Source of the DNA: an uncultured Ignavibacteriota bacterium
Lineage (GTDB): Bacteria; Bacteroidota; Ignavibacteria; UBA10030; UBA8401
NCBI GenBank assembly: GCA_903884005.1
Contig: CAISDA010000002.1
Location: 1-64,000, forward strand
Direction: 5' to 3'
DNA: 64,000 bases
Part shown: in pieces, positions 29,957-54,613 of the stretch
How the letters are laid out: each line of letters opens with the position of its first letter
How positions within the stretch are numbered: the first letter of the stretch is position 1
Translations under genes and position numbers: made by a program
Notes under the pieces: generated by a model
What the model saw: the letters and a program-made list of their open reading frames with translations, nothing else
What the model was told of the DNA's origin: nothing
Database searches by the model: none

Positions 29957-32158
29957 ATGAATACCTCGCTAGAACAAGAGTTTTCATATGCCGTTCCCCC
30001 GAACGAGGGGAAAATGCCGGCAAAAAAAAAGAAAAAGAATATATTGCCCTATATTCCCAAGGGAAGTTCTACGTTGGACCCGGCATTGTTTATCAATCGC
30101 GAACTCAGCTGGCTTGAATTCAACCATCGGGTCCTGGAGGAAGCGTGTGATCATCGGCACCCGCTGCTGGAGAGAGTAAAATTTTTATCAATCGTCAGTT
30201 CCAATCTCGATGAATTTTTTATGATCCGGGTGGCCGGCATCAAAGAACAGATCCTCGCTGACTTCGTAGAATACTCCCCTGACGGCCTGGTCCCGCTTCA
30301 GCAAATCCGCTCGATTCACGATCGAGTGTCGCTCATGTTGAAACAAATGAGCGATTGTTTTTGGAAAGATCTGCATCCGCGTTTGCATACGGAAGGCATC
30401 GATTTGCTGAGAATGGGACAGGTTTCAGAACATGAGCGAACCGCGCTTGCACGGTATTTTGAAAAAGAAATATTTCCTGTCCTGACTCCCTTAGCTTTTG
30501 ACCCTGAGCATCCATTCCCGTACATTTCGAATCTCAGCATCAATTTAGCCGTGGTTGTCGTCTCACAAAACGGCAACGAGAAATTCGCACGCGTCAAAGT
30601 TCCCGACGTCCTCCCGCGATTAGTGCTAATACCGAATGACCATCCTGAATTTACGACGTACCGCTATGTATGGCTCGAAGACCTTATCGCGTCACATCTG
30701 CATTTCCTCTTCCCCGGCATGACAGTGAAAGAGTCCTATGTCTTTCGCATTACACGGAATGCCGACACCGAGATCCAGGAAGATGAGGCGGAAGACCTTA
30801 TCAGTTCGATCGAAGAATCGATCCGACTTCGGAGATTCGGTTCCGTCGTTCGGGTAGCTGTGCAAGAGACGATGCCGGCGCGCATCAAGAACATTTTAAT
30901 TGAAAATCTGGAAGTGACGAAGGAGGACGTGTATCCGATACAACAGCCCTTCGGCTTGAGCCATCTGATGAGCCTGTTGAAGATTCCCCGGCCTGATCTG
31001 AAGGATACTCCCTTCACCCCCGCCTCTCTTCACACGGAGAATGAACACGAAGACTTTTTCGCCATTATCCAGCGAGGCGATGTGCTGCTGCACCATCCGT
31101 ACGATTCGTTTTCTTCCGTCGTACACTTCATCCAACAGGCGGTCAACGATCCGACGGTGCTTGCGATCAAACAGACATTGTACAGGATCGGGAAAGAATC
31201 GCCCCTTGTCCCCCTGCTCATCGAAGCGGCAGAAAACGGCAAACAGGTGGCGGTGCTCGTTGAACTGAAGGCGCGGTTCGATGAGGAGAACAACATCGAA
31301 TGGGCGAAGCAGCTTGAACGCGCGGGCGTGCATGTGGTCTACGGCGTCGTGGGGTTAAAGACCCACGGGAAAATGCTGCTCATCGTTCGCAAGGAGGAAC
31401 ACGGCATTCAGCGGTATGTTCATCTGGGGACGGGAAACTATAATCCGGTCAATGCGCGGATCTATACGGACTACAGCTATTTTACGCAGCGTGAAGATAT
31501 TGCACGGGATGTGTCCGAAGTCTTCAATTTCCTGACCGGATATTCGAAGAAGGAAAATTTCGAGCGGTTGGGCGTTGCACCGATCAACCTGCGTGAAACT
31601 ATGACGACGTTGATTGATCGGGAGATCGGCCATGCGAAACAGGGGAAAGCATCCCGGTTGATCTTCAAGATGAATTCGTTGACCGACGTCAAGATCATCG
31701 AGAAACTCTATGAAGCCTCGCAGGCTGGTATTACGATCGATCTGATCATCCGGGGGATCTGCTGCCTCCGTCCCGGCGTGAAAGGTGTCAGCGATACCAT
31801 TCGAGTCATCAGCATCGTCGGCCGATACCTCGAACACAGCCGTGTTTTTTATTTTCACAACAACGGCGAGTACGAACTGTACTTGAGCAGTGCCGATCTC
31901 ATGGCACGGAATTTGGACCGACGCGTCGAGCTCCTCTTCCCGATTTTGGATACAACCCTGGCAGACCAGGTCATCAGCGAAACGCTGGAGAATGCGCTCT
32001 TCGACAATGTGGGTGCGCGCATCCTTCATTCCGATGGGCTGTATTCGAGGGTTGTGCGGAACAATGACGACCCCATCATTGAAAGCCAGTATGTGATCGC
32101 CCAAACGCGGACGCGCAGGCTCTCGCATATTAAGGCGGTCCCGCGGCTCCTGCCGTGA
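29957..32158 (+). CDS. ppk1: Polyphosphate kinase 1
   Basis: PPK1 reversibly builds long-chain polyphosphate from the gamma-phosphate of ATP. The 733-aa protein shows the N-domain FINRELSWLEFNHRVLEEA, SNLDEFFMIRVAG, ALDPEHPFPY-like region, the catalytic LKTHGKMLLIVRKEE with the autophosphorylated His, VHLGTGNYNPVNARIYTDYSYFT, and the second active-site His in EHSRVFYFHNNGE followed by LSSADLMARNLDRRVELLFPI. Length and order are normal. The N-terminus has an extra 30 residues with a Lys-rich run. Its promoter has Pho-box-like repeats, and PPK2, PPX and CHAD genes follow within 14 kb. Confidence 0.97.
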   Translation: MNTSLEQEFSYAVPPNEGKMPAKKKKKNILPYIPKGSSTLDPALFINRELSWLEFNHRVLEEACDHRHPLLERVKFLSIVSSNLDEFFMIRVAGIKEQILADFVEYSPDGLVPLQQIRSIHDRVSLMLKQMSDCFWKDLHPRLHTEGIDLLRMGQVSEHERTALARYFEKEIFPVLTPLAFDPEHPFPYISNLSINLAVVVVSQNGNEKFARVKVPDVLPRLVLIPNDHPEFTTYRYVWLEDLIASHLHFLFPGMTVKESYVFRITRNADTEIQEDEAEDLISSIEESIRLRRFGSVVRVAVQETMPARIKNILIENLEVTKEDVYPIQQPFGLSHLMSLLKIPRPDLKDTPFTPASLHTENEHEDFFAIIQRGDVLLHHPYDSFSSVVHFIQQAVNDPTVLAIKQTLYRIGKESPLVPLLIEAAENGKQVAVLVELKARFDEENNIEWAKQLERAGVHVVYGVVGLKTHGKMLLIVRKEEHGIQRYVHLGTGNYNPVNARIYTDYSYFTQREDIARDVSEVFNFLTGYSKKENFERLGVAPINLRETMTTLIDREIGHAKQGKASRLIFKMNSLTDVKIIEKLYEASQAGITIDLIIRGICCLRPGVKGVSDTIRVISIVGRYLEHSRVFYFHNNGEYELYLSSADLMARNLDRRVELLFPILDTTLADQVISETLENALFDNVGARILHSDGLYSRVVRNNDDPIIESQYVIAQTRTRRLSHIKAVPRLLP

Positions 32159-32370: not shown

Positions 32371-33369
32371 TCATTTTTTTATTTCGTATTCGTAGACCTG
32401 CTCGCCATTATCATTGACAAAACTGAATCGCATAACATTCCGGGTCAGTGAAACTGCTCCAAACCCGAGCGACGCTTTGCTGAACTTCGTGAACGCTTTT
32501 TGTCCCGCCGGCCTTGTTTCCGATCCGCCCCCGCATCCGAAGTACTCGATTGTAGAATGTTCCGGATGCGAATGCTGAAGATCGTGATCATGACCTGAGA
32601 AACAGGCGTCGACCTTATATTTTTCAAACAACGGAACCATAAGGACTTGAATCTCTTTTGTGCTGCCGTGTTTTGATGAGGCGGAGTATGCGGGATGATG
32701 AAAAACGGCAAACTTCCATTGTGCAGTCGATGCGCTCAGCACGCTATCGGCCCACAGTATCTGTGCAACAACGTTCTGTCCCTTCACATGGTGTCCGTCC
32801 TCCGGTTCATTAACGTATTCCTGCACGAAAGGAGATGAGTCGAGCACAAGGAAAAGCACTGCAGTTGAATCAGGAAGCTTTTTTGTGAAGCTAAAATACC
32901 GTGCAGGTTCGATCCAGCGATTGCTTGTCTTCGCATACGCGAGTTCCGCTTCAGCATTACCCCCGTTGTCATGATTGCCAAGCGCGATGTACCATGGGAT
33001 CATCAGTGATTGATCGGCATATACTTTTTCAAAGTTCACACTCCACAGCGCATCTGTCACCGTCGGAACGCCTTTACCGTGAAAATTATCTCCGCATGAA
33101 ACGATGAACGACGGCTTAAAGTTCATTGCGGTTGCGCCAAACTGTTTGGCAACTTTAAGTTGCCCCGGCATTTTCTTCGATGTGTCGTCGATCCCATCCC
33201 TGCCCCAGTCGCTAATCACGAAAAAATTGAGGACTTCGCCGCCTTGAGAGAGCGCTTGTGCGATGACGGGAGATGATTGAGCATGCAGTCCGGTACATAC
33301 TGCTGCGATCAATATGACCGAGGCAATCGCACGGAATCTTGCAATGAATGGTGATCGTGGGTTCTTCAT
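32371..33369 (-). CDS. Secreted purple-acid-phosphatase-like metallophosphoesterase
   Basis: The 332-aa protein has a signal peptide (to about residue 31, LHAQ) and the layout of the small, TRAP/ACP5-type purple acid phosphatases: DWGRDG, VSCGDNFHGKGV, a PWYIALGNHDNGGN block, VFHHPAYSA and GHDHDLQH, which provide the two-metal ligands. It would release phosphate from organic esters in the periplasm or outside. One odd point is His where the family has Tyr after GDNF; that Tyr is the Fe(III) ligand that gives the purple colour. GGAG lies 8 nt before the ATG. It is divergent from the TonB receptor. Confidence 0.86.
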   Translation of the reverse strand: MKNPRSPFIARFRAIASVILIAAVCTGLHAQSSPVIAQALSQGGEVLNFFVISDWGRDGIDDTSKKMPGQLKVAKQFGATAMNFKPSFIVSCGDNFHGKGVPTVTDALWSVNFEKVYADQSLMIPWYIALGNHDNGGNAEAELAYAKTSNRWIEPARYFSFTKKLPDSTAVLFLVLDSSPFVQEYVNEPEDGHHVKGQNVVAQILWADSVLSASTAQWKFAVFHHPAYSASSKHGSTKEIQVLMVPLFEKYKVDACFSGHDHDLQHSHPEHSTIEYFGCGGGSETRPAGQKAFTKFSKASLGFGAVSLTRNVMRFSFVNDNGEQVYEYEIKK

Positions 33370-33739
33370 GTTGTTGCTCCTATGTAATAGTAAAAGAGAT
33401 GCATTGCCAAAATATAACTCAATACCATTATGTGAACATTATGCCCTGATTACCGAATCATTAATTCCACTCCAACCGACATTCTGCTTTTAAATATTGG
33501 TTAGGCGATCATCGGCACTATTTTGTGAAGCGATAGTACATCCGCCAACTTACTGATACGCGAAGAATTCCTTATCAATCCCTGAACAATAGGGTCACAC
33601 ATATATTCCGATGCCGTAACAATGGGGTAACATTCCATGAGTATCTTACTTGCCGAAGCTATGCATTAGGGCGGTCCTCGGATCCCTTTCCGCGGAGTAC
33701 ATTCATGCCGCTCCTCCCATATTACCATATCACTACTCT
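33370..33739. other. Divergent intergenic region, phosphatase / TonB receptor
   Basis: This 370-bp gap has no convincing gene. Its right half holds the Pho-box-like array at 33583-33632; the left half is AT-rich and presumably carries the phosphatase promoter, though I could not pick out a clear one. Confidence 0.5.
33583..33632 (+). promoter_or_regulatory. Phased Pho-box-like array upstream of TonB receptor
   Basis: TGAACA (33583), GTCACA (33594), GTAACA (33616) and GTAACA (33627) all fall on one 11-bp phase, with only the register at 33605 unmatched. The spacing and hexamers match the sites before pstC, ppk1 and the porin. A TATCTT at 33642-33647 could be the -10, which favours translation start at 33740 rather than at TTG 33650. 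Confidence 0.6.
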
Positions 33740-36613
33740 ATGCGCGACTCGAGATACTCTGATCACGAATCCTTCTGCACATCGGTATTTTTACGCGTGG
33801 ACCGCGCGCGCATCCTTTCACCGTTAACTTTTGTGACATCATTTCTGCAGCGTTGCGGACTCTGGATTGCTGCATTCCTTCTCCTTGAGCTTTTCTCGTA
33901 CACAGCCTCGGCCGGAACGATTCATGGCTCGGTGCGAGGAAAAGTAAAGAATGAGCCTATTCCCGGCGCAAACATCACCATCCAGGGAACCCGTCTCGGT
34001 GCGTCAAGCGATCAGGCTGGAGTTTTCATTATCCGGCATGTATCAGTTGGTGCGTATACGATCCATGTGCGCATACTTGGGTATACGGAAATGGAATCCA
34101 AGCGCATCACTGTGGCTACGGATACATCTTCGGTGAACATTGATATGCTGCTGGAGGAATCCATCTTAAGCATGGGGGAAATGGTCGTGCAGGCGCGGGC
34201 GAACCGCGAGCTTGAAATTTCGGGCATACAAAGTGAGTATGACGCAAAAAATATCATCAACGTCATCACGGCCCAGACGATCGAACGATCCACGGACAGA
34301 ACCGCAGCGGACGTTCTTCAAAGGGTCCCGGGTATCTCCCTTATCCGGAGCAATGGCGGAGAAGGACGTTATGTCATTGTTCGCGGCCTCGAACAGCGGT
34401 ACAACAACACACTTGTTGATGGAATGAAGATCCCCAGTCCTGAATCGAAGGACCGATTTGTCCCCCTCGATATATTTCCCTCCGCACTCTTCGAACGCAT
34501 TGAGGTGACGAAAGCTCTGACCCCTGACCTGGCCGGTGATGCGATTGGCGGAACGACCAATATCATATTCCGCAGAGCACCGGAAGAGTTCGTGTTTTCT
34601 GCAAGTGCCGCAAGAGGGTACAGTTCCGGGCTCTATAATAAAAAATTTACAACATTCGATGCCGGCACTGTTCCTGAACTCGATCCGGATCGGCTCCATA
34701 ACACTGTCAACGACAACGATCCGGTGGCACAGCTCGGGCCGCGTTATCACACCAGCGCTTCCGATTTCACCGTTAAAAATCTCAAGACGACCGACCGGAC
34801 GGCTCCTCTCGACGGGATGTATTCTATCGTTACCGGCAATCGATTTCTCGACTCACGGCTCGGCATCATGGCTGCCGGGAGCTACCAAAACACATCAAAC
34901 CTTACATCATCGGAATATTATTCTCTCGGAACGAATGTAAACAGCAACCTGAAGCCGTTTGAAGCCACGCTCGATCAGCGCGTGACGAGCAGCCGCAAGA
35001 TGCGTTCGGGAGCAACCGTCAAAGCCGATTTTATCATACAGTTCGATCATCAACTCTCGGCGTCGTTCATCTATCTTAATCAGACGGAAGAATTGGTGCG
35101 TGAGGGTCTTCAGACGACACTCGACGGATCGAGGGGTGCATCCGATCTTTCGTATTCTTACCGCACAGCTCTTCGCACCCAGAATGTATCTAATTATTCC
35201 CTCTCGGGCGAGCACTTTACCTCCTCACCCGTCGTTCTTCGCTGGACGGCCAATTATACCGATGCCGTTCAGGATCGTCCTGATGAGGCTGATTACACAC
35301 TGCTCCAAAATTTCGATCAGAAAGGAAACCTTCAGCCATTTCAAGGTCTCGGCCAGGTTGACCATTCGTGGCGAAAAAACACGGATAAGCAATATCTGGG
35401 AAAAGCTGATATTTCGTGGCGTCTGACGGATGACAATGCGCATGCCATTCAGACCGGTGGAAGCTTTCAAAAACTCCAACGCGTTAATTTTCAGAATGAC
35501 TTCAAATTGAATCCGGCAATTGTCAACGGACGGACGGAGGCCTTCATATCGCTTGATAGTGTGCATCTGGTTCCCGTGGGATTCGGCGGAACACCCGTAT
35601 TTGGATTTCAGAACTATAAGGCGCAGGAAGCTCTCTGGTCAGTATACTTTCAGTATGTCCTCAACACCGGCGCTCTCCAAATCCTCGCCGGAGTCCGTTG
35701 GGAACAGACGCGAGATATGTATTGGACGCAGGCGCCGGTAACGGCAGGCCGGACGCAGGACACTGTGATGTTCGTCGATTTCCTGCCGAGCATCCACATA
35801 CGCTATGCGTTTTCACCCGAACATACGCTCCGATTATCAGTCACCCGAACCATGAGCCGTCCCAGCTATTTCGAACTCGTTCCTGCGACGGATAAACAGG
35901 ATGATCGGCAAACGAATGGCAACCCGGACCTACTTGCAGCACACTCGACAAACGTGGATGTGCGGTATGAATACTCTCCGTCGTACGCGGACCAGTTTTC
36001 CATCGGAGTCTACTCCAAACGCATTACCGACCCGATCGAGAATCAGTTCAATGCAAGCGGCGTTGTGTTCACAACTACCAAGGCCAACGGCAATCCGGCT
36101 GATGTCTACGGCCTTGAGGTGGCCGCTGCGACCCATTATGGCGACCTCGGCGTGTCGGCAAACTATACATATGTCTTCTCGCGCATGGAACAATTGACCC
36201 TTGTCCCGACGCTCGATGCGTACGGTGATCCCATTATTCCAGTACCAAACTACACACGAACTCGTGCGCTTCAGGCTCAATCGCCGAGCATTGTAAACGC
36301 CTCCATTTCGTATACAAATAAGGATTGGGGTACCGGTGTGCATGTGTCGTATAATTATACAGGTAAGCGCCTCATGGCCGTCTCGGCCATCGACGGATGG
36401 GATACGTATGAAGATGGTATCGGCGAGATGGATTGTTCAGCGGATCAGGATCTCTTGCCTGGCTTCAAGGTATCCCTGAAGCTCATCAATCTCCTGAATG
36501 CCGTCGCAGTGACGGAGGTTCCCTCCGGTGACCGCACAACGCATCCCGATCTCGTGGTCCAGCGGGACTTTAACAAATTACGGGGTTCCATCGGAATCAC
36601 TTATCACTTTTAA
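33740..36613 (+). CDS. TonB-dependent outer membrane receptor
   Basis: The 957-aa protein has a signal region (hydrophobic IAAFLLLELF, cleavage near TASAG), a CarboxypepD_reg-like domain (GTIHGSVRGKVKNEPIPGANITIQGTRLG is the start of it), and a plug with VLQRVPGISLIRSNGGEGR, VIVRGLEQRYNNTLVDG and KALTPDLAGDAIGGTTN, close to the TonB-Xanth-Caul type. The C-terminal 22-strand barrel ends in Phe (GITYHF). Ligand is unknown. ATG 33740 is preferred; the frame stays open to TTG 33650, which would lie on the predicted promoter. It is followed by a T9SS beta-helix gene (54 bp) and a beta-propeller gene, and is divergent from a phosphatase. Confidence 0.92.
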   Translation: MRDSRYSDHESFCTSVFLRVDRARILSPLTFVTSFLQRCGLWIAAFLLLELFSYTASAGTIHGSVRGKVKNEPIPGANITIQGTRLGASSDQAGVFIIRHVSVGAYTIHVRILGYTEMESKRITVATDTSSVNIDMLLEESILSMGEMVVQARANRELEISGIQSEYDAKNIINVITAQTIERSTDRTAADVLQRVPGISLIRSNGGEGRYVIVRGLEQRYNNTLVDGMKIPSPESKDRFVPLDIFPSALFERIEVTKALTPDLAGDAIGGTTNIIFRRAPEEFVFSASAARGYSSGLYNKKFTTFDAGTVPELDPDRLHNTVNDNDPVAQLGPRYHTSASDFTVKNLKTTDRTAPLDGMYSIVTGNRFLDSRLGIMAAGSYQNTSNLTSSEYYSLGTNVNSNLKPFEATLDQRVTSSRKMRSGATVKADFIIQFDHQLSASFIYLNQTEELVREGLQTTLDGSRGASDLSYSYRTALRTQNVSNYSLSGEHFTSSPVVLRWTANYTDAVQDRPDEADYTLLQNFDQKGNLQPFQGLGQVDHSWRKNTDKQYLGKADISWRLTDDNAHAIQTGGSFQKLQRVNFQNDFKLNPAIVNGRTEAFISLDSVHLVPVGFGGTPVFGFQNYKAQEALWSVYFQYVLNTGALQILAGVRWEQTRDMYWTQAPVTAGRTQDTVMFVDFLPSIHIRYAFSPEHTLRLSVTRTMSRPSYFELVPATDKQDDRQTNGNPDLLAAHSTNVDVRYEYSPSYADQFSIGVYSKRITDPIENQFNASGVVFTTTKANGNPADVYGLEVAAATHYGDLGVSANYTYVFSRMEQLTLVPTLDAYGDPIIPVPNYTRTRALQAQSPSIVNASISYTNKDWGTGVHVSYNYTGKRLMAVSAIDGWDTYEDGIGEMDCSADQDLLPGFKVSLKLINLLNAVAVTEVPSGDRTTHPDLVVQRDFNKLRGSIGITYHF

Positions 36614-36667
36614 TCGCACCAGATCTACCACAACCCACTACAACACTATACATGTTAAAGAGGAATT

Positions 36668-38119
36668 ATGCGCGCACTACGAATACTTTTTTTACTCGCG
36701 TTGCCTGTTATCATGCAGGCGCAGACACTTAGCTCCGGACCCTTCTCCGGCGTTATCAAAGGAACCACACTTCCGAATAAAACCTATGTCGTCACAGACT
36801 CCATTCTTGTCAACGCAGGCGATACACTGCGCATCGCCGCGGGCGACACACTCATCATGAAGAGCGTAAACGGCGCCATTTTCATCAAGGGTAATTTCTA
36901 TTGTGAAGGCACCTCGACCAACCCCATCGTTATCACGGTTCCGCCGGAGCGCCGGACGCTCGGTCCGGGCCAATGGGGCGGCATTATGGTTGATTCCGCA
37001 AAAATCTTCAGCATGAAATTCACGAAAATCCTGTGGGCCGGCGGCACGGATCTTGGCGGACATGCATATCGGACAATCAATGTGACTTCGGATTATCTCA
37101 ATGGCACGACGACAACGTTCACAGACAACACAATCATCGGCACTGTCGATGACTGCATCGGGATCATGGGCGGCAAGGCGAGCATCCTCCGAAATACCAT
37201 TAAATGGTGCGGCGCTCCCGATGGCGATAATATCAACATCAAGAACGGCGCAATCGGCGAGATCGCATATAACGTCATCTGGGGCTCGGGCGGAAATGCG
37301 ATCAAGCTGAACTCCGATAAGAACGGCCTGACGCGTCTCACCAACATGTGCATCCACAATAATACGCTTATTGCCGGCGGCTGGCGGCGTGTCGAGGAAT
37401 TAGGCTACGGCATTCTCGTCGATGTGAACGCCCGAGCGCAGATCTACAACAACATCATCGGCGATTTCTATCAGGATCTTGAAATCACGGTAGCATCGGA
37501 CACGGCGCGCGTCGTGTACGACAACAATCTCTTCTTCGGCTCAGCAGACAGCCTTAGTGCTATGAATATCTTCTACGCCTCCGACGGTGTCGCCCGCAAA
37601 CAGGCGCACGATATTTTCCTCGGCAAAGCCGGCAGTCCGTTCGCCCGTTATAAGCCATTCTTCACAACAAATTGGAACACTGCCGACAGCACCAACGATT
37701 ATCACCTCTTTGCGCTGTACGGCAACAAAGGTTTCACACCACCGTCGACCTGGGTGAATCCGTCGATCACAGGACAGCTTCCAGGTGATGCAAATGTCGG
37801 TGCTTTCGGTGTCTCGACAACTGCCGCCGTACACAATGTTTCCACATCAGGCCCGACGACATTCGACCTGCAACAGAACTACCCAAACCCATTCAACCCG
37901 TCGACGGTGATCAAGTATGCACTGCCGAACACAGACATGGTGACACTCACCGTGTTCAATCTCCTCGGACAGCCGGTACGGACGCTTGTGAGCGAGATCC
38001 AGGCAGCGGGTATGCACACCGTACAGTTCGACGCTTCAGGGTTGTCCTCTGGTATGTACTTGTATAAACTCCAATCAGGCGCGATGGCAAAGGTGAACCG
38101 TATGACGCTGCTGAAGTAA
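36668..38119 (+). CDS. T9SS-exported right-handed beta-helix protein
   Basis: The 483-aa protein has a signal peptide (MRALRILFLLALPVIMQAQ), a repetitive body typical of parallel beta-helices (DNTIIGTVDDCIGIMGG, ILRNTIKWCGAPDGD, EIAYNVIWGSGGNAIKL, ICHNN-type rungs) and a type A sorting domain starting QNYPNPFNPSTVIKYALP. AGAGGAA precedes the ATG by 4 nt. It would be anchored or released at the cell surface next to the TonB receptor encoded just upstream, a SusD-like partner position, although it is not SusD. Beta-helix proteins often bind or cleave polysaccharide; no catalytic set is recognised. Confidence 0.85.
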   Translation: MRALRILFLLALPVIMQAQTLSSGPFSGVIKGTTLPNKTYVVTDSILVNAGDTLRIAAGDTLIMKSVNGAIFIKGNFYCEGTSTNPIVITVPPERRTLGPGQWGGIMVDSAKIFSMKFTKILWAGGTDLGGHAYRTINVTSDYLNGTTTTFTDNTIIGTVDDCIGIMGGKASILRNTIKWCGAPDGDNINIKNGAIGEIAYNVIWGSGGNAIKLNSDKNGLTRLTNMCIHNNTLIAGGWRRVEELGYGILVDVNARAQIYNNIIGDFYQDLEITVASDTARVVYDNNLFFGSADSLSAMNIFYASDGVARKQAHDIFLGKAGSPFARYKPFFTTNWNTADSTNDYHLFALYGNKGFTPPSTWVNPSITGQLPGDANVGAFGVSTTAAVHNVSTSGPTTFDLQQNYPNPFNPSTVIKYALPNTDMVTLTVFNLLGQPVRTLVSEIQAAGMHTVQFDASGLSSGMYLYKLQSGAMAKVNRMTLLK

Positions 38120-38159
38120 TCGGTACGATTATGCATCTGTTGCTCTGCATTTCATGAGA

Positions 38160-38200
38160 AACGGCGATGCAGCCTTCGGGGTTGCATCGCCGTTCTTTCA
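38160..38200 (+). terminator. Hairpin between beta-helix and propeller genes
   Basis: A 12-bp perfect stem (AACGGCGATGCA at 38160-38171, complement at 38183-38194) with an 11-nt loop is followed by CTTTC. The weak T-run suggests partial read-through into the propeller gene. Confidence 0.65.
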
Positions 38201-38244
38201 TACAACACACACTCTCACTTTTTTTTATAGACAAAGGAATGCAC

Positions 38245-39252
38245 ATGGTACGTACGATCTTACGAATGCTTCTCCTCACATCGCTCTGTTGCGGCGCGTC
38301 ACAAGTTGGTTTTGCCCAATCCCCCCTTCCGGTCGTCCTCGACACGATCTCCGTTGGCGGTGTTGGTGGAATTGACTATATCACATGCGATACGGCGGCT
38401 CACCGCTTGTACATTTCTCACAGCACGCGCATCGAAGTCGTCCGATACGATAAGAAGACTCGCATCGGCGGCATCGATAGTACGCCCGGAGTCCATGGCG
38501 TGGCCCTCGCTCCTGAATTCACGCGCGGCTTCACGAGCAACGGCAAAGACGGCAGTGTCACCGTATTCGACACCAAGACCCTTGTTGTCATTAAGACGAT
38601 CCAAACACAAGGGAAGAAACCCGATGCTCTCACCTATGAACCCTTGTCGAAGCGCGTCTTTATCTTCAACGGCGACAGTGAGGATTGCACTGCGATCGAT
38701 GCCGCCACGATGACCGTTGTTGGCACGCTCGCCCTCGGGGGCGGACCCGAAGCGCCTGTTGCCGACGGTAAAGGAGACATTTATGTGAACATCGAGACAA
38801 CGAACGAAGTCGTACGGTTCGATGCCGGGACGCTCAAGATTAAATCCCGATGGCCTGTTGCTCCGGCTGAAACACCAACGGGTATTTCAATGGACCGTGC
38901 CAACCGCATTCTGTTTATCGGCGGACGGAACCAGATATTCGCCGCCCTGAGTGCTGATGACGGCCATGTTCTGGCTAACTTTCCGATAGGCAAGGGTGTG
39001 GATGGCACGGCATTCGATGCCGCAACGGGAATGATTTACATTTCGAACAAAGACGGTAGTCTCGATATAATCCGTGAAAACGGACCCTCAAAATTCACAC
39101 CCGTTGGCAAAGTTCTGACGACTCCAGGCGCAAAAACCCTCGCGCTCGATGCACGATCTCATCGAGTGTACCTGCCGGCAACCCGCCAGGTGGACGGACC
39201 AAAGGGAACAAAGAAGGGCGAAATGATGGTGATCGTGGTTGGAACTCGGTAA
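38245..39252 (+). CDS. Exported YVTN-type beta-propeller protein
   Basis: The 335-aa protein has a signal peptide (MVRTILRMLLLTSLCCGASQ then VGFAQ) and repeated blades with YVTN-like words (HRLYISHST, GSVTVFDTKTLVVIKTI, DIYVNIETTNEVVRFDAGTL, GMIYISNKDGSLDII, HRVYLPATR). ATG 38245 is chosen because AAAGGA lies 6 nt upstream; ATG 38239 would abut it. Such propellers are usually periplasmic or surface binding proteins. The gene is the last of the TonB receptor set and is followed by a terminator. Confidence 0.85.
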   Translation: MVRTILRMLLLTSLCCGASQVGFAQSPLPVVLDTISVGGVGGIDYITCDTAAHRLYISHSTRIEVVRYDKKTRIGGIDSTPGVHGVALAPEFTRGFTSNGKDGSVTVFDTKTLVVIKTIQTQGKKPDALTYEPLSKRVFIFNGDSEDCTAIDAATMTVVGTLALGGGPEAPVADGKGDIYVNIETTNEVVRFDAGTLKIKSRWPVAPAETPTGISMDRANRILFIGGRNQIFAALSADDGHVLANFPIGKGVDGTAFDAATGMIYISNKDGSLDIIRENGPSKFTPVGKVLTTPGAKTLALDARSHRVYLPATRQVDGPKGTKKGEMMVIVVGTR

Positions 39253-39460: not shown

Positions 39461-41011
39461 TCAATTTTTAAATTTGACGCGTGTGTTGTATGTTTCTTCG
39501 AAGAGTTCCTTTTTCCGCTCCGCTCCCCAGATCTCCAGATCGTCTCCCGTTAATTTGTTCTTGAGAAGTGTGAACGTCAGCACATCTTTGAAACGCCTGC
39601 ATCGCACCTCCTTGATCACTCCTGAATGCGTCCGGTCGAGCCCGTCGGCTATGCGGAGAATCGATGCAAGTTTATGGACGATCGCCTGCTCCTCCGCATC
39701 CAGTTTATTGTATCCTTCGTGCTTAATTTTGGGATGGCTTTTCCTATGATAGCGGGCCACATTGGCGACGATCTCTTTTTCATTTTCAGTGAACCCGAGC
39801 AGTTCAGCGTTTCGAATGAGATAATATGAATGCCTGTGATGCTGCGTGTGCGAAATGAATAATCCCACTTCGTGAAGCAGCGCGGCTGCTTCTAAATATA
39901 CCCGCTCATTTATCCCGAGATGGTGAAGTGTTTCCGTTTGGTCGTAGATCTGCAAGGCGAGACGTGCTACCTGTTGGGCGTGATTCTTTTCGTACTGAAA
40001 GTTTTCCGCAATATGAAGCACACTCGAATACCGTATATCATGGAGGTGGTCAAGTTTTTTTTTACGATAAAATTTTTCGATCGTATCGAGGATGATTCCT
40101 TCTCTCAGCGCAAAATCGGATATGGTCATAGACTTGAGATCGAGCACATCGAAGATCTCGTCGAGGATCACCGCTCCGGCGACAATAATGTCTGCCCGTG
40201 CCGGATCGAGCCCCGGGATCCTGCTGCGTTCCTCGTTGGTCGCACAGGACACGATCGTGTCTACGGCAATCGCCAATTCCTTGCGGGAGAATGTGAAGCC
40301 GTTCAACGGCATATCCGGACTGTTGCCCTTCGACACGCTGATGAGCTGCGCCAGATTCGTGATCGTGCCCGATGAACCGATCGCAATATCAAACCTGTAT
40401 TCATGGAGCCCGCGTTCCACTGGACTGAGTATGCCCCGCACATAATGACGGCATTCGGCGATGGTATCCGATAGCTCTTTGCCGTTCTTAAAATATTTTT
40501 CTGTCAACCGCACGGCGCCGAGTTTCAGGCTGTTGTTAAACAGCACCTTGCGTTCCTGTCCGAGAAGAAACTCAGTGCTCCCGCCGCCGATGTCTATCAT
40601 GAGATGACGCTTCTTAAAGACTGGGAGCGCCTGAAGCACACCGAGATGAATCAGCCGCGCTTCCTCAACACCCGATGCTATTTCAACCCTGATGCCCGTC
40701 TCCGTTCGTACACGCCTGACGAATTCATCCTTATTCAGCGCTTCGCGTACGGCGCTCGTCGCAATCGCGCGCACCTGCGCGTTTAACGAATCGGCGATTT
40801 TTTTGAAGCGCCTCAGCGAAAGAAGCGCCCGGTCCATCGCCGACTCGGAGAGATATTTCATATCGGTCGATCCCAGGCCAAGACGCACAAGGTCTTTTTG
40901 GCGTACCAATGTTCTGAATCGGCCCGTGTCGGGATCGATCTCCGCTACAATCAGGTGTATCGAATTTGTGCCGATATCGATGGCGGCAAGGTTTCTCTTT
41001 TCTATCTTCAT
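39461..41011 (-). CDS. ppx: Exopolyphosphatase / pppGpp phosphohydrolase family
   Basis: Ppx/GppA enzymes remove terminal phosphate from polyphosphate or convert pppGpp to ppGpp. The 516-aa protein begins AAIDIGTNSIHLIVAEI (ASKHA phosphate-1 motif), with ATSAVREALN, LMIDIGGGSTEFLLGQ (phosphate-2) and AVILDEIFDV, then a C-terminal HD-type domain (about 320-500) with AALLHEVGLFISHTQHHRHS and ARYHRK. The two-domain length fits Ppx. It is 63 bp after the SixA-like gene on the same strand, and CHAD and PPK2 genes follow, so polyphosphate is the more likely substrate. Confidence 0.93.
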   Translation of the reverse strand: MKIEKRNLAAIDIGTNSIHLIVAEIDPDTGRFRTLVRQKDLVRLGLGSTDMKYLSESAMDRALLSLRRFKKIADSLNAQVRAIATSAVREALNKDEFVRRVRTETGIRVEIASGVEEARLIHLGVLQALPVFKKRHLMIDIGGGSTEFLLGQERKVLFNNSLKLGAVRLTEKYFKNGKELSDTIAECRHYVRGILSPVERGLHEYRFDIAIGSSGTITNLAQLISVSKGNSPDMPLNGFTFSRKELAIAVDTIVSCATNEERSRIPGLDPARADIIVAGAVILDEIFDVLDLKSMTISDFALREGIILDTIEKFYRKKKLDHLHDIRYSSVLHIAENFQYEKNHAQQVARLALQIYDQTETLHHLGINERVYLEAAALLHEVGLFISHTQHHRHSYYLIRNAELLGFTENEKEIVANVARYHRKSHPKIKHEGYNKLDAEEQAIVHKLASILRIADGLDRTHSGVIKEVRCRRFKDVLTFTLLKNKLTGDDLEIWGAERKKELFEETYNTRVKFKN

Positions 41012-41074: not shown

Positions 41075-41719
41075 TTATTTACCGAGCTGGCGCAACTGCT
41101 TCGGCTGCATGAGCCACACAAGTTTGCCTTTCGTGCGGCCTGTGAGCGTCGGGATCTCAATGCAGCATGCGGCTCCTTTTTTCAGTTCGACGCTTAAGGA
41201 CTCTGAACCAAGCAGCGCAGCGGCCACGGCGTTCAAATCAGGCGTATGTCCAACGAGCATGATGTGACCGCGGGTCTTATATTTCGCGAGCGCTTTCAAT
41301 AATAGCGGATACGATGTTCCGGGAGCGAGTTCGGGGCAGAGTTTGACTTTTCTTTCACATCCCAACGCCTCGGCAGTGATCTGTGCCGTTTCCTTTGCGC
41401 GCAGCAGCGGGCTCGTTAATATTATATCGATGGGAGTGGGGATGAGGCGATCAAGCCCGTGAGCCGCATTCATCATTTTTTTTCTTCCATCTTTCGTCAG
41501 AGGCCGGTCTTCATCAGGCACTATGTGTGTGCCGACGACTTTCGGTTGAGGCGTGGCGTCGATCGGCGTTTTTACTTCGATCGTCTCGGTTGAGCCCTGT
41601 ACAGGCTCAGCAACAGCGACAGGCATCGTTTTCTCTTTCTTTTGCTGCTGACCCTGTGTAGGCTGGCTCGCCTCGGCAGATTCAACTGCCACTGCATGTC
41701 GTAGAAGATAGATGAACAT
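41075..41719 (-). CDS. SixA-like histidine phosphatase with long insertion
   Basis: The 214-aa protein starts YLLRHAVAVE (catalytic His8) and continues with RPLTKDGRKKM, ILTSPLLRAKETAQ and MLVGHTPDLNAV (second catalytic His), the SixA set. SixA proteins are near 160 aa; here about 50 extra residues rich in Gln, Pro, Lys, Glu and Thr separate the first His motif from RPLT. SixA removes phosphate from phosphohistidine on phosphotransfer proteins. A polyphosphate-related role is inferred only from its place between ppx and the CHAD gene. Confidence 0.85.
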   Translation of the reverse strand: MFIYLLRHAVAVESAEASQPTQGQQQKKEKTMPVAVAEPVQGSTETIEVKTPIDATPQPKVVGTHIVPDEDRPLTKDGRKKMMNAAHGLDRLIPTPIDIILTSPLLRAKETAQITAEALGCERKVKLCPELAPGTSYPLLLKALAKYKTRGHIMLVGHTPDLNAVAAALLGSESLSVELKKGAACCIEIPTLTGRTKGKLVWLMQPKQLRQLGK

Positions 41720-41744
41720 AGGATGCCCTCTTTAGTTTAGTGAA

Positions 41745-42716
41745 TTATTGTATCATTGACTGTATAACGATCTCTGTAAATTTTTCACGATCGAAGCGCT
41801 TGAGCTTCTCCCCCATTTCCTTAAACAATAGGGTGCGGCGACGCCTGAGCCCTCTTAAATATCCTTCGAGTCCCTGCACTCGAATCCGCTCCGAACGAAT
41901 CGATCGGTGCGCGTTAAAGGACCGTATTTCTTCGCATTGCTGTATGATCTTTGGAATATGCACATCGCAGTCGTGTATCGATCCCATGATATCGAGCAGC
42001 GTTTTCATCTCTTCCAGACAGCGAGTATATTCGCCGCCGAATATTTCCGAGAAAATTTCCATCCCATACCGCACGCGTTTGCCATCGATGCGCATTCCGT
42101 GCAGTTTTTCTTTTTTCCGGGGATGGGAAAGCACATCACTCCCCTGCGACAAAAAGACACCAAGGAGATCAGGAACAATAAAACGTGCGGACTCATATAA
42201 AGATTGTTCATGCGGCGCAGCCGTTTTTTGCTTTGCTGTGTGTTTCAGTGATGCGTGGACAAATGCGTCGAACCGTTTCATGCAGTGTTTCTCATTCAAA
42301 GCCTGCAGCAATTTTTTAAGACGCTTTCTGTGAATATTTCGCGCATGCTCTTCGTTTTCAATGATCATATCCAGCGCGGTACGATCCGGTTCTTTAACCG
42401 CCTCCGTACATGCAACAAGTGATGCGATAAAGATATCTCCATCACGCACGTTTCCCAATGCCTGTAACAGAAATTTCAACCTTGTGTTTAGCTTTTTAAG
42501 GGGGGTGGGTTCAAAATGCAACCGGTAAATAGTCAAGATCGCTTTTAGGCGCCGTACCGCAACGCGCATGTCATGCACGGCCTCAATATCCTCGTGTGTA
42601 AGTGCCGGGATCTGATACGAAAAGACCTCATTCACTCTCGTGTGTAGAATTTTTTTCAGGCAGGAATGTACACTCTTGTTCGGGTCAAGGTTGTGTATTT
42701 TCCACGGCTGTGCCAT
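41745..42716 (-). CDS. CHAD domain protein
   Basis: The 323-aa all-helical protein carries the conserved histidine alpha-helical domain: HDMRVAVRRLKAILTIYR, LKFLLQALGNVRDGDIFIASL, KLHGMRIDGKRVRYGMEIF and LDIMGSIHDCDVH. CHAD domains bind polyphosphate through basic grooves and target proteins to polyphosphate granules. It lies 25 bp upstream of the sixA-like gene on the same strand and is divergent from ppk2. This variant has no CYTH domain. Confidence 0.92.
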   Translation of the reverse strand: MAQPWKIHNLDPNKSVHSCLKKILHTRVNEVFSYQIPALTHEDIEAVHDMRVAVRRLKAILTIYRLHFEPTPLKKLNTRLKFLLQALGNVRDGDIFIASLVACTEAVKEPDRTALDMIIENEEHARNIHRKRLKKLLQALNEKHCMKRFDAFVHASLKHTAKQKTAAPHEQSLYESARFIVPDLLGVFLSQGSDVLSHPRKKEKLHGMRIDGKRVRYGMEIFSEIFGGEYTRCLEEMKTLLDIMGSIHDCDVHIPKIIQQCEEIRSFNAHRSIRSERIRVQGLEGYLRGLRRRRTLLFKEMGEKLKRFDREKFTEIVIQSMIQ

Positions 42717-42922
42717 GTGAAAGTTCCCTCATGGCGATCTCGATCAGTCGCCGGCAACGTGCGGCTTTCAGGATGAACTAAGAGAAAATAACGTGTGCTG
42801 CAATACCCCGTATAAAATGATACTAAAGAATGCATACACATGCAACCGCCCCAATTTGCCCATCTTGCTATAGTCGGAACGAATGGTTATGTTTCAGAAA
42901 ATTAGTGAGAGGACTAAAAACA

Positions 42923-43792
42923 ATGAAAACATCAATCGACGATTTCCGCGTGAAGGAAGGCAGGAAAGTCAACCTCAAAAAATGGCCCACGGTCGTGGAT
43001 CCGGTTTATGATGGAAAACAACCGTATAAAAAAATATTAAAAGCGCACACCAAATCCCTCAGCGAACGTCAGAGCCTTCTCTATGCGGCGAACCGCTATT
43101 CGGTGCTGGTCATCGTCCAGGCGATGGATGCGGCAGGCAAAGACGGTATTATCAAGCATGTCATGTCGGGCATCAACCCGCAAGGATGCCAGGTCTTCAG
43201 CTTCAAACAACCCAGCACGCAGGAACTCCAGCACGACTTCCTCTGGCGCACAATTGTCTCCTTGCCTGAACGCGGGCGCATCGGAATATTCAACCGATCC
43301 TATTATGAAGAAGTGCTCATTGTGCGTGTCCATCCAGAGATCCTCAAGGCACAGGGCCTGCCGCCTGAGACCCTCAAAAAGAAATCCGTCTGGAAGGATC
43401 GGTTCAAATCGATCAACGATATGGAAGCCCACCTCCACCGCAATGGTACGCGCATCATAAAATTTTTCCTTCATCTCTCAAAAAAGGAACAGGGCAAACG
43501 TTTCCTCGATCGCATCGATAATACGGATAAGAACTGGAAATTCAGTGCCGCCGACATTCAGGAACGAGAGTTGTGGGACAACTACCAATCAGCATACGAG
43601 GACTGCCTGAGTTCGACAAGCACCGGGCACGCTCCCTGGTACATCGTACCCGCAGATGATAAGGCGAACGCGAGACTCATCGTCTCCCAGGTAATTCTTG
43701 ACACGCTCAAAGGCTTGAAGATGGCATATCCCCGGCCCGACGACAAGCGCCGCGAAGAACTGCTTTCGATACGAAAGCACATCGAACCATAG
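42923..43792 (+). CDS. ppk2: Polyphosphate kinase 2 (class I-like)
   Basis: PPK2 uses polyphosphate to phosphorylate nucleoside mono- or diphosphates. The 289-aa protein has Walker A MDAAGKDG at residues 68-75, the lid-adjacent [19 protein letters not shown] and [21 protein letters not shown], and a C-terminal [20 protein letters not shown] 42923 is chosen because GAGAGGA precedes it by about 9 nt. It is divergent from CHAD-sixA-ppx. The substrate class (AMP or ADP) cannot be fixed from motif reading alone. Confidence 0.94.
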
Positions 43793-49210: not shown

Positions 49211-49906
49211 TCACTCATTTTCATTCATTCTGTATCCCACGCCCTTGATCGTGTTGATATAGGACGAGCACTCGCCCAGTTTTTCCCGAATCTTGCGTAT
49301 GTGTACATCAATCGTCCTGTCCACAACGCGGACATCGGTGCCCCATATGGCACTAAGCAGCGATTCACGTGTGACCACCTTGCCGCTGTGGCTGACAAAA
49401 TACGCGAGAACTTCGAATTCTTTTTTCGGAAAAAACACGTCCCGGCCCGCAACAGATACACGATGATGTGCACGGTTGATCTCGATCAATCCATGTGAAA
49501 GGATTTCCTCAGTTGTATCCGTAACCGTTGCCGGTAGCGTTCGTGTTCTGAGTGCAGACTTGATGCGTGCAATGAGTTTCGGAACGCTGATCGGCTTTGT
49601 GATATAGTCGTCGGCCCCGAGTTCGAGTCCGATCACTTCATCCAATTCGGAGGTGCGGGCTGTCAGAAAAATGACAGGGATCGAGGCGGTAGATGGGTCG
49701 GTTTTTAATGCACGGACGACATCATGCCCGTTCATTTCGGGCATCATCACATCGAGTAGAATGAGGTCCGGATTTTTTCTCGCCTGAAGGAGGGCCTCTC
49801 TGCCGTTCGATGCGGTGAGAATTTCGAATCCTTCTTTTTCAAGGTTGTATTTCAAAATATCGATGATGTCGCGTTCATCGTCGGCAACCAGCAGCTTTTG
49901 TTTCAT
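49211..49906 (-). CDS. phoB: OmpR/PhoB-type response regulator
   Basis: The 231-aa protein has a receiver domain (VADDERDI, phospho-Asp in LILLDVMMPEMNG, KPISVPKL) and a winged-helix effector domain (KEFEVLAYFVSHSGKVVTRESLLSAIWG, RTIDVHIRKIREKLG, IKGVGYRM). Its place directly after phoU, in the order pstC-pstA-pstB-phoU, makes it the likely regulator of the phosphate regulon. No PhoR kinase follows; the partner must be elsewhere. The 91-bp gap to phoU has no terminator. It should bind direct repeats of about 11-bp period. Confidence 0.88.
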   Translation of the reverse strand: MKQKLLVADDERDIIDILKYNLEKEGFEILTASNGREALLQARKNPDLILLDVMMPEMNGHDVVRALKTDPSTASIPVIFLTARTSELDEVIGLELGADDYITKPISVPKLIARIKSALRTRTLPATVTDTTEEILSHGLIEINRAHHRVSVAGRDVFFPKKEFEVLAYFVSHSGKVVTRESLLSAIWGTDVRVVDRTIDVHIRKIREKLGECSSYINTIKGVGYRMNENE

Positions 49907-49997: not shown

Positions 49998-50672
49998 TTA
50001 CTTTGGCAACGGATCGCCTGCGTGGTGTTTGATCACTTTGGCTCGGGCGATAAAGACCACTTCTTCTGCGATGTTGGTTGCAAGATCGGCCACTCGCTCC
50101 AGGTTGCGGCTCACGCGTATCCATTCGATCGCCTGTTCAACGCTTTCAGGATCGACTTTCATCAGTTCCATCAACTCATGCGTCACTTTTCGGTTCAAGT
50201 TGTCAACAGAATCATCCATTAACACAACCGCTTCGCCGATATTGGGGTCGAGGTGGATGAATGCATCCACCGCATCCGACAGCATTCTGCGGGCAAGCTG
50301 CGACATGCGCGCAATGTCGTCGCGCTGCGCCAAAGGTTTGCTTTTTGAATGGATCGTCAGTCCCGATTCGGCAAGGTTCACAGCATGGTCGCCGATGCGT
50401 TCGAGGTCGTTGTTGATCTTCGACGCGGCAAGGATCAGCCGAAGGTCTGAAGCCACAGGTTGCTGCAATGCGAGGAGTTCAACAATGAGACTATCAATTT
50501 GCATTTCCATCGTGTTGATCGGTTCATCGCCCTGTGCAACCGATGCGGCAAGGTCTTTGTTTTCCGTGAGAACCGATTCCATGGCTTTCTCAACCGCATC
50601 TTCAGCCATCGATGCCATCTTAATCAATGCCGATTTTAATTCCTGCAAAATGTGTTCGAAATGTCTCTGCAT
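49998..50672 (-). CDS. phoU: Phosphate signalling protein PhoU
   Basis: PhoU couples the Pst transporter to the PhoR-PhoB pathway and limits phosphate entry. The 224-aa protein has two three-helix PhoU repeats, each with the metal-binding E/DxxxD pattern: SKINNDLERIGDHAVNLAE and SRNLERVADLATNIAEEV. ATG 50672 is chosen because GAGGAG lies about 5 nt upstream; the frame is open to 50792, overlapping pstB. It follows pstB by 116 bp. Confidence 0.95.
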   Translation of the reverse strand: MQRHFEHILQELKSALIKMASMAEDAVEKAMESVLTENKDLAASVAQGDEPINTMEMQIDSLIVELLALQQPVASDLRLILAASKINNDLERIGDHAVNLAESGLTIHSKSKPLAQRDDIARMSQLARRMLSDAVDAFIHLDPNIGEAVVLMDDSVDNLNRKVTHELMELMKVDPESVEQAIEWIRVSRNLERVADLATNIAEEVVFIARAKVIKHHAGDPLPK

Positions 50673-50788
50673 AGAGCTCCTCGTAAGCGCTAAATTAACG
50701 TCAAATGTCCGTGGAAACCTTGGTCCAGGACGCGGACCTTCCTCACGTTGGAATGACAGTGTGGTTTTACGGTTGAAAACAATTTCCA

Positions 50789-51565
50789 TCAACCGAAGCG
50801 GCCTGTGATATAATCTTCGGTCTGCTTTTTTCCCGGCGTCGTAAAAATTGTTTTCGTCAGATCGTATTCGATCAGTTCACCCATATAAAAGAACGCTGTA
50901 AAGTCGCTGACCCGGGCAGCCTGTTGCATATTGTGAGTAACAACGACGATTGTGTACTGACTTTTCAGCTCGTACATCAGTTCCTCGATCTTCGCCGTCG
51001 AGATCGGATCGAGCGCACTCGCGGGCTCGTCCATTAGCAGCACTTCCGGATCTACCGCCACAGCTCGGGCGATGCATAAGCGCTGCTGCTGGCCTCCCGA
51101 AATGGCAAGGCCGCTTTTGTGCAGATCGTCTTTCACTTCATCCCATAATGCGGCGCGCTTAAGGCTGCGTTCCACAATTTCTTCGAGTTGTCGTTTATCC
51201 TTGATTCCATTGATGCGAGGTCCATAGGCGACATTATCGAAAATCGATTTGGGAAACGGATTGGATTTTTGAAAGATCATGCCAATTTTTTTTCGGAGTT
51301 GCACGACATCAACGTCCGGACCGTAAATATTCGTTCCCTCAAGAAAAACGTCACCTTCGATCCGAACAGAATCGATGAGATCGTTCATGCGGTTGAGTGT
51401 GCGAAGATACGTGGACTTTCCACATCCGGAGGGTCCGATGAGCGCCGTCACATGGTTCCGGGGGATGCTCATGGTAATATTGTGGAGCGCCTGTTTTGCA
51501 CCATAATACAGGTTGAGGTTGGACGTGGTGATCTTCGGTTCTATGTCGGTCATCGGTGTTGTCAT
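50789..51565 (-). CDS. pstB: Phosphate ABC transporter ATP-binding protein
   Basis: The 258-aa ATPase drives PstSCA phosphate import. Walker [11 protein letters not shown]-loop in [10 protein letters not shown], signature [15 protein letters not shown], Walker [13 protein letters not shown] and the switch His in [15 protein letters not shown] are intact, as is the PstB-specific [13 protein letters not shown] start. Its ATG overlaps the pstA stop by 1 bp (TAATG), showing translational coupling. Confidence 0.98.
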
Positions 51566-52467
51566 TAATTAAATGCTCGTGTGCGGATCTTATACCGCAG
51601 GAAGATTGCCGAAAAATTGAGCGTGAATGTGAGTCCGAGCAACACGAGAGTCGTGGCGTACTGAATACCCCGCGTCGCCTCGACGTCCGGCGATTGTGTT
51701 GCCATGATGTACACGTGATAGCCAAGCTCCATGAACTGGTCTGAAAGGGACCCGGGAAGATGTGGAAGAAAATACGCCGCGCCGACGAAGAGGATCGGGG
51801 CAACCTCACCCGCTCCGCGGCTCACTGCGAGGATCGCGCCGGTCAGGATCCCGCCCACGGAATTCGGAAGCACCACTTTCCAGATCGTTTCCCATTTCGT
51901 CGCGCCGAGTGCGAGACTCGCCTCGCGCAGTTCGCGGGGCACTGCTTTGACGGCCTCTTCTACTGAAACAATGACGACCGGCAGTGTGAGGAGCGCCATC
52001 GTCAGGCTCGCCCACAGCAGGTTTGGCTGTCCCCATTTCAAATCAGCGCTGCCGCTCACATGATCGATAGACCCGCCGATAAATTGAACGAAGAATCCGA
52101 GCCCGAACAGGCCGAACACGATCGCCGGCACACCCGAGAGCGTATTGACGGCAAAGCGAATGCTCCGTCCGAGGATCGATCGTGTGCTCGCATATTCGGT
52201 GAGGTAGATCGCAGTGATCGTGCCGATCGGCACGCCGACAATTGACATGATCATGACAAGAAGGAACGTGCCGAAGATCGCGGGGAAAATTCCACCCTCC
52301 GTCATGCCGTTCGTCGGTGCGGTGGAAATGAATTTCCATGAGAGCGTGCTCCAGCCGCCTATCGCGATATCGCCGATGATAATGGCGACGATAATGATGA
52401 GGAGGAAGGCGGAGAAGGCGGTGATCGTCGTAACAGAAGCTCCGAGCATTTTTTTCCGAATGTTCAC
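51565..52467 (-). CDS. pstA: Phosphate ABC transporter permease PstA
   Basis: The 300-aa inner-membrane protein has six hydrophobic segments and the EAA loop [31 protein letters not shown]. It starts at GTG 52467, directly after the pstC stop codon, and ends overlapping pstB. With PstC it forms the phosphate channel. Confidence 0.96.
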
Positions 52468-53517
52468 TTAGATTCCCTCGAATCGTTTCATCAGACGTTG
52501 ACGAATAAATACTTCTGCGATGGCATTCAGCGTAAAGGCAAAGGCAAAAAGAATGGAACCGATGAGAAAGAGGACGTTATAATGAGTATCGCCGAAGACC
52601 ACTTCTGCCATTTCCGCACCAATCGTCGCTGTCATGCTCCGTACGGGTTCAAAGAGATTCCACGAAAGCATAGCCGCATTTCCGGTAGCCATGAGCACGA
52701 TCATTGTTTCGCCGAACGCTCTCCCGATGCCCAGCAACACTGCAGCGAAGACCCCCGGTGTTGCCGCCGGCAGTATGACAAAAAGAGCTGTCTGCCATTT
52801 CGTTGCACCCAGTGCCAGGCTGGCTTCGGTCATGACCTTGGGCACGCGCGTCAGCGCGTCTTCTGTGATTGTGTAAATGATAGGCATGACCGCCAACGAA
52901 AGCGCCACTCCACCCACGAACGCATTCAATCGATAGGTGTATCCGAACACATTTTGGAAAAATGAGGCGAGAACGATCAATGCAAAGAATCCGATAACGA
53001 CGGATGGGATACCTGCCAGAATTTCAATTGCCGGTTTCATCAGTTCCTGCGCCCATCGCGGCGCGAACACGGAAGTAAAAAGGGCGGCAAGGATCCCGAA
53101 GGGTGCAGCAATGAGAATTGCAATGAGGGTCACTTTAAGGCTGCCGACAATAAGCGGGATCAATCCGAATTTGGGTTGTCCGGATACTGGCTGCCATTCG
53201 CGGCCCGTTAAGTTTTTCAGTGACGCATCGCCTTCGACAGCGTCCACTCCTTTATTCGCCGATACCGATGATGAACTGGTCGGTTCCCCATAGGTTTCTT
53301 GCACTTCTTCCTTCGCAATAACCGAGGGTGCCGCGTTGTGCGAAGAAAAAATCGGGAAGGTTTCTCGGAAAACAAATATAATGATGAGCACTATCATCGC
53401 CAGAGAGACAAATGCGATGCTCCGGATGGCCTGTTCGATCAAAAATTCCCCGATTCGGAATTTCCTTTTCATCAATGCGGAAGAACGTTGTTGTCCACTA
53501 TCGTTTGTATTCGTCAT
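52468..53517 (-). CDS. pstC: Phosphate ABC transporter permease PstC
   Basis: The 349-aa protein has six hydrophobic segments, one near the N-terminus (AFVSLAMIVLIIIFVFRETF) and the rest after residue 115, with the EAA loop [30 protein letters not shown]. Between the first and second segments is a periplasmic stretch of about 65 residues (Ser/Glu-rich, then GREWQPVSGQPKFG), longer than in E. coli PstC but normal for this subgroup. ATG 53517 is chosen by homology of the N-terminus; no strong ribosome-binding site is present. It is the first gene of pstC-pstA-pstB-phoU. Confidence 0.94.
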   Translation of the reverse strand: MTNTNDSGQQRSSALMKRKFRIGEFLIEQAIRSIAFVSLAMIVLIIIFVFRETFPIFSSHNAAPSVIAKEEVQETYGEPTSSSSVSANKGVDAVEGDASLKNLTGREWQPVSGQPKFGLIPLIVGSLKVTLIAILIAAPFGILAALFTSVFAPRWAQELMKPAIEILAGIPSVVIGFFALIVLASFFQNVFGYTYRLNAFVGGVALSLAVMPIIYTITEDALTRVPKVMTEASLALGATKWQTALFVILPAATPGVFAAVLLGIGRAFGETMIVLMATGNAAMLSWNLFEPVRSMTATIGAEMAEVVFGDTHYNVLFLIGSILFAFAFTLNAIAEVFIRQRLMKRFEGI

Positions 53518-53591
53518 TGTTGGGAATCGTTCGTTCAGTGAAAGTGAAGGCCGTCGGCACGGTATCGTCGTTATACAAAGATACAAATCCT

Positions 53592-54550: not shown

Positions 54551-54613
54551 ATAAGTCCTTTTGTGAAAAATATTTTAAAATAGTTTCGTATCGAATGATC
54601 GGAAATGCGCCGA

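Follow-up and report, generated by a model that had tools for sequence, protein, structure and literature searches.

The window, by which we mean the whole 64,000-nucleotide stretch of DNA that was analysed from an uncultured Ignavibacteriota bacterium, probably encodes a PhoB-controlled system for organic phosphate that works in the manner of SusCD, with a right-handed beta-helix protein in the position of SusD. At its centre are four genes, encoding a metallophosphatase, a TonB-dependent receptor (TBDR), a T9SS-secreted right-handed beta-helix protein and a 7-bladed YVTN propeller. A sequence-only reading of the same DNA had proposed a surface system for organic phosphate, and this main proposal is supported here by gene-order conservation and by the promoter pattern. 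Bacteroidota contribute strongly to phosphorus mobilisation in soil and the rhizosphere, and outer-membrane uptake of organic phosphorus is, to our knowledge, poorly understood. As one TBDR clade and one beta-helix family remain constant while unrelated phosphatases interchange around them, it can be argued that the pair itself handles organic phosphate. The TBDR-helix pair could therefore act as a genetic marker for organic-phosphate systems, and the four-promoter Pho regulon provides a precise prediction that is easy to test.

Gene content and phosphorus context

All four genes were recovered where the sequence-only reading had placed them and on the same strands, as were the flanking ppk1 and ppx genes, which were identified with Pfam and NCBIfam models (Table 1). 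Two start codons were revised. The TBDR had been read from a TTG at 33650, but this coincides with the predicted transcription start, making an ATG at about 33740 or a GTG at about 33797 more likely, while the propeller, previously read from 38167, probably begins at about 38239-38245.

Table 1 Features of the phosphate locus and its surroundings, in window coordinates.
Feature	Position	Strand	Basis
ppk1, polyphosphate kinase (context)	29957..32158	+	TIGR03705
Exported calcineurin-like phosphatase	32371..33369	-	PF00149, E 2e-18
Pho-type promoter of phosphatase, ATAATG-N5-ATAATG-N9-TATATT	33411..33442	-	1 of 4 sites in 4.53 Mb
Pho-type promoter of TBDR operon, GTAACA-N5-GTAACA-N9-TATCTT	33616..33647	+	Genome pattern search
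TBDR: CarboxypepD_reg domain, plug, barrel	33740..36613	+	Pfam/NCBIfam
Right-handed beta-helix (residues about 20-330) with T9SS C-terminal sorting domain (405-476)	36668..38119	+	
Exported 7-bladed YVTN/YncE-like beta-propeller	38239..39252	+	Pfam/NCBIfam, predicted structure
ppx/gppA-type exopolyphosphatase (context)	39461..41011	-	Pfam/NCBIfam
SixA-type phosphohistidine phosphatase (context)	41075..41719	-	TIGR00249, above cut-off
CHAD-domain protein (context)	41745..42716	-	Pfam
PPK2 polyphosphate kinase (context)	42830..43792	+	NF042973, above cut-off
PhoB-type response regulator, likely regulator	49211..49906	-	Response_reg + Trans_reg_C, behind phoU
phoU, pstB, pstA, pstC	49998..53586	-	
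Pho-type promoter before pstC, ATAATA-N5-GTAATA-N9-TATCTT	53578..53609	-	Genome pattern search
pstS and upstream porin gene (441 aa)	53726..55939	-	
Pho-type promoter before porin-pstS, GTAACA-N5-GTAATG-N9-TATATT	55999..56030	-	Genome pattern search

The window additionally holds phoB, phoU, pstB, pstA, pstC, pstS and a porin gene (49211-55939), none of which featured in the sequence-only reading. The porin gene beside pstS had no Pfam match and is OprP-like by position and reading. The phoB gene has no adjoining phoR-type kinase within the window; in locus L081, from another family, a phoB-phoR pair lies beside the TBDR. Between the four genes and phoB, sixA, CHAD and ppk2 group with ppx (41075-43792), and the CHAD protein, we presume, may bind polyphosphate. 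Directly upstream of the porin-pstS operon, a free-standing winged-helix Trans_reg_C protein that lacks a receiver domain is encoded on the minus strand (56025-56362), and the Pho box of porin-pstS overlaps the 3' end of its gene. This protein could be a second regulator of phosphate genes.

Pho-type promoters

The Pho-box-like array described in the sequence-only reading proved to be real (GTAACA-N5-GTAACA at 33616-33632, before the TBDR), and phosphate control is supported at the promoter level in the genome itself, in a second genome of the order (G245) and among relatives across the phylum. A separate copy of the box, belonging to the phosphatase, lies on the minus strand (33442-33411); it was first spotted by eye and had not been described in the sequence-only reading. 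The composite promoter consists of two 11-bp-spaced RTAAYR half-sites, the last of which starts 15 nt before the -10 box, and it shares with Pho boxes the directly repeated half-sites at this spacing, a fixed distance to the -10 box and occurrence at pst promoters. The corresponding pattern, RTAAYR-N5-RTAAYR-N9-TATMTT, which was derived from three of its four own-genome sites (the pstC site not among them), had exactly four matches in the 4.53-Mb genome, all of them inside this window and at phosphate promoters, namely those of the phosphatase, the TBDR operon, pstC and porin-pstS, the last with one more half-site upstream. A reversed-pattern control gave 0 matches in the same genome, and a looser pattern gave one extra match, elsewhere in the genome. 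Judged by these promoter sequences, the four transcripts are most likely under PhoB control.

In G245, which belongs to another family of the same order, the pattern had only two matches, one preceding the orthologous phosphatase (64% identical to that of the window) and the other a porin-like gene with pstS behind it; the TBDR of this genome is preceded by a near-match of identical spacing. The exact pattern was not found in most other genomes of the class, suggesting that the motif letters drift, and the phylum-wide count therefore used a looser TTAACA-type repeat in its place. This half-site is known from Bacillus PhoP boxes. TTAACA-type 11-bp repeats were present in 21 of 98 TBDR upstream regions in relatives, versus 2.2 expected from shuffles (maximum 6), and several of these regions contained three or four half-sites in phase.

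In two further genomes (G012 and G017), the genes downstream of pattern matches are other TBDR-like genes or unrelated ones, and these matches may be chance. TGTCA-type repeats with E. coli spacing were not found at the TBDR promoter, their sole match in the window lying elsewhere. Further TAACA-type 11-bp repeats occur at 44562-44577 (+) and in locus L097 (G000:C13:109256-109282), the latter an array of three half-sites in phase; neither is assigned to a phosphate gene.

Conservation of the TBDR-helix pair and its neighbours

Searches with the whole helix protein matched mostly T9SS sorting domains of unrelated cargo, so the T9SS tail was removed from the helix queries. Close relatives were then found in 15 of the 245 sampled genomes of the class, indicating that the TBDR-helix system is an accessory module, and relatives were also present in 80 named Bacteroidota loci, including those of Mucilaginibacter, Pedobacter, Chitinophaga, Ferruginibacter and Ignavibacteriae MAGs. 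Weaker matches from across the phylum (E about 1e-11 to 1e-18) were kept out of the family; unrelated beta-helix proteins are among them. Across the Bacteroidota, a same-strand TBDR directly precedes the helix open reading frame (ORF) in 99 of 103 distinct cases. By BLAST, at least 70 of the 103 helix loci had a phosphatase no more than four ORFs away and about a third had none; the propeller recurs in 30, 21 of which also have a phosphatase. Of the proposed gene-order conservation, the TBDR-helix pair therefore stood, whereas the four-gene set is not fixed, as loci differ in phosphatase type and many lack the propeller.

The gene next to the pair (n = 82) belonged to PF00149 in 18 cases, His_Phos_2 in 13, beta-propeller phytase in seven and PF04185 in six, so that these four distinct phosphatase families account for at least 44 of the 82. 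PafA, PhoY, PF01663 and PAP2 gave single matches each, and YVTN/YncE propellers accounted for about 19-26 of the 82, depending on the model. PF00149 was also found in 19 of 42 second genes after the pair and in 7 of 48 divergent upstream genes. By comparison, 18 other TBDRs of the same genome as the window are followed by 36 genes from 30 families, and the 25 families that were listed included no phosphatase. Two Chitinophagaceae loci (L107 and L109) repeat the layout of the window, with ppk1-ppx-TBDR-helix-phosphatase and then phoB-phoU.

A lipoprotein-like gene with no clear Pfam family recurs directly behind TBDR-helix pairs in several lineages (L092:10711-11661, L214:10260-11210, L216:8245-9183 and L221:5613-6629), and is possibly another phosphatase or a binding protein.

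The receptor and its beta-helix partner

The TBDR reached only 35.5 of the 368 bits required for the SusC/RagA type (TIGR04056), and its best NCBIfam model was TIGR01782 (260 bits versus a cut-off of 310). Its nearest solved structures are siderophore and heme receptors, with the match confined to the plug. In a tree that compared approximately 38 helix-paired TBDRs with 20 further TBDRs encoded by the window's genome and with three taken from PUSIV-type loci, the helix-paired TBDRs formed one clade (support 0.973), and the three sampled PUSIV-type receptors fell outside it.

The only confident Pfam match of the helix protein is its T9SS sorting tail, which scored 38.5 bits against TIGR04183 (cut-off 23). 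The protein has a signal peptide without a lipobox in addition to this C-terminal domain, and the genome encodes SprA, so both the sorting domain and the secretion system expected for a T9SS cargo are present. Most of the helix core was predicted at a pLDDT of about 90 or higher, and while Foldseek by itself returned no confident match, a second structure aligner aligned the core with pectate lyases, alginate lyases and NosD (Z about 22-24). More distant helix relatives lack the sorting tail but have a lipobox-like motif near the start and lie directly behind a TBDR, so there seem to be two routes by which the helix reaches the surface. As some lineages rely on lipidation and others on T9SS, selection appears to maintain the extracellular place of the protein. 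As these distant relatives look like lipoproteins directly behind a TBDR, the earlier suggestion that the beta-helix takes the position of SusD is strengthened.

Phosphatase and propeller

The closest solved relatives of the phosphatase are the tartrate-resistant/purple acid phosphatases (PDB 1qhw, E 5e-34 over the whole domain), and the dinuclear-metal motifs of the mammalian purple acid phosphatase (DWG, GDN, GNHD, HHP and GHDH) are all present. However, the iron-binding Tyr of purple acid phosphatase is absent from the window's enzyme, which has His in its place (GDNFH). This motif is shared by the enzyme of L081, while other relatives show Y, H or Q at that position.

The propeller was predicted to adopt a 7-bladed fold (mean pLDDT 90) and did not reach the cut-off of the YncE equivalog model NF052280 (36.8 of 400 bits). 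Every blade opens its inner strand with a residue that is invariant across all 23 sequences compared (D46, H86, D129, E171, T214, D255 and K299, numbered from 38239), and together these residues form a ring that is conceptually similar to the central channel of beta-propeller phytases. Some loci instead carry a 900-residue protein that combines a YVTN-type propeller domain with a PF04185 phosphoesterase domain. The window's propeller is only 25-32% identical to the fused propeller part over short stretches, and with parts so distantly alike the fusion carries little weight as a Rosetta-stone argument. Nevertheless, a propeller that holds the gene position of a phosphatase, lies near a phosphatase in most loci, has a distant PF04185-fused counterpart and conserves an invariant ring might, as a tentative suggestion, be an undescribed metal-dependent phosphohydrolase or a phosphate-ester-binding protein.

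Relation to known systems

The window system follows the working principle of SusCD, and its nearest members are the PUSIII/PUSIV and ElpS pairs. As in SusCD glycan importers, the TBDR has a surface partner encoded directly downstream; unlike in SusCD, this partner is a beta-helix with a T9SS domain, and no SusD-like lipoprotein is directly downstream. In Flavobacterium johnsoniae, PUSIII and PUSIV are TBDT-lipoprotein pairs that are strongly induced by low phosphate, and their lipoproteins, FI and FII, adopt a fold like that of polygalacturonase and are similar to Caulobacter ElpS (Lidbury et al., PMC8115612). The window pair likewise joins a TBDT gene to one for a pectin-lyase-fold surface protein, and has a Pho-type promoter where the PUS pairs are under phosphate control, with PUSIV adjoining phoBR/OprP. 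In contrast to PUSIII/PUSIV, the window's helix has a T9SS signal and no lipid anchor, and the set includes a phosphatase and a propeller. As both the anchor type and the TBDR clade differ, the window pair does not belong to PUSIV. In a profile comparison, presumed FII orthologues, recognised by OprP-phoR-phoB-TBDR gene order, matched the helix family at a probability of 99.5% (hhalign, E 3e-22), although an unpaired beta-helix family also reached 97.9% (E 4e-13). The lipoproteins matched in this way come from one genus, where six PUSIV-like loci (L248-L252 and L263) have phoB with a divergent TBDR and helix-type lipoprotein, and four of them show the PUSIV layout with an OprP relative across phoB; these loci are conserved in the genus though their TBDR lies outside the clade of the window's receptor.

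In Caulobacter crescentus, the phosphate-starvation surface lipoprotein ElpS (CC0170) adjoins the TonB receptor CC0171, which is constitutively expressed according to its authors (PMC2996285), a point against the phosphate control proposed here. Through these literature descriptions, the likeness lies in a surface protein beside a TBDR and a link to phosphatase, but ElpS is released through T2SS action whereas the window's helix would be placed by T9SS. Plasmid searches for proteobacterial (ElpS-like) helix relatives yielded nothing useful. BtuB-BtuG and similar Bacteroides TBDR-propeller pairs (e.g. PMC10404256) offer a precedent for non-SusD partners, with a surface beta-propeller encoded in a TBDR operon. 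Unlike those propellers, that of the window has no evident lipobox, does not adjoin the TBDR and is accompanied by phosphatases.

Proposed mechanism and alternatives

Under low phosphate, PhoB would bind the 11-bp-spaced half-sites and switch on four transcripts, namely porin-pstS, pstCAB-phoU-phoB, the phosphatase and the TBDR-helix-propeller operon. Secreted by T9SS, the beta-helix protein would come to lie on the outside of the cell, where it may cap or feed the TBDR as SusD does SusC and capture an organic molecule carrying phosphate, perhaps one resembling a glycan given that the helix shares its fold with pectate and alginate lyases. Phosphate would be freed by the phosphatase, and perhaps also by the propeller, either at the cell surface or in the periplasm once TonB-driven uptake has taken place; PstSCAB would then import the phosphate, and Ppk and Ppx would store and retrieve it.

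A different role for the helix is suggested by the proposal made for ElpS, in which the surface protein holds or activates a phosphatase and the TBDR imports only the product or serves otherwise. Overexpression of ElpS raised extracellular alkaline phosphatase activity while the purified protein had none (PMC2996285), and the type of phosphatase beside the helix changes freely, as a general scaffold would predict. However, the constant partner of the helix is the TBDR (99 of 103, in one clade) and not the phosphatase, which a receptor-lid pair fits better, and we consider the phosphatase-helper role rather unlikely.

The cargo of a receptor-lid pair could also differ from the one proposed. TBDRs often import metal chelates, the plug resembles those of siderophore and heme receptors, and the acidic ring of the propeller could bind metal, all of which would suit import of a metal complex (iron, calcium or lanthanide phosphate) freed in phosphate starvation, with the phosphatases merely sharing PhoB control. 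Phosphatases of several unrelated folds, phytases included, are nevertheless encoded directly downstream, and siderophore or iron gene families are not prominent among the neighbours, making a metal cargo improbable. It is very improbable that the system serves a glycan as a carbon source in an incidental phosphorus context, since its promoters are of the Pho type, its neighbours are phosphatases and no glycoside hydrolase family is prominent among them, even though the helix fold is that of polysaccharide lyases and hydrolases and GFO_IDH_MocA genes lie upstream in four loci. Capture and import of organic phosphate thus remains the preferred reading of the locus.

Two minor observations may be added. 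In G004, an assembly break falls inside the helix gene (L094/L095; C3 and C15), such that the TBDR and the start of the helix end one contig, while the end of the helix, two phosphatases and the propeller lie at the end of another. At the left end of the window, a repetitive, tail-fibre-like open frame spans 53-2305 (+).
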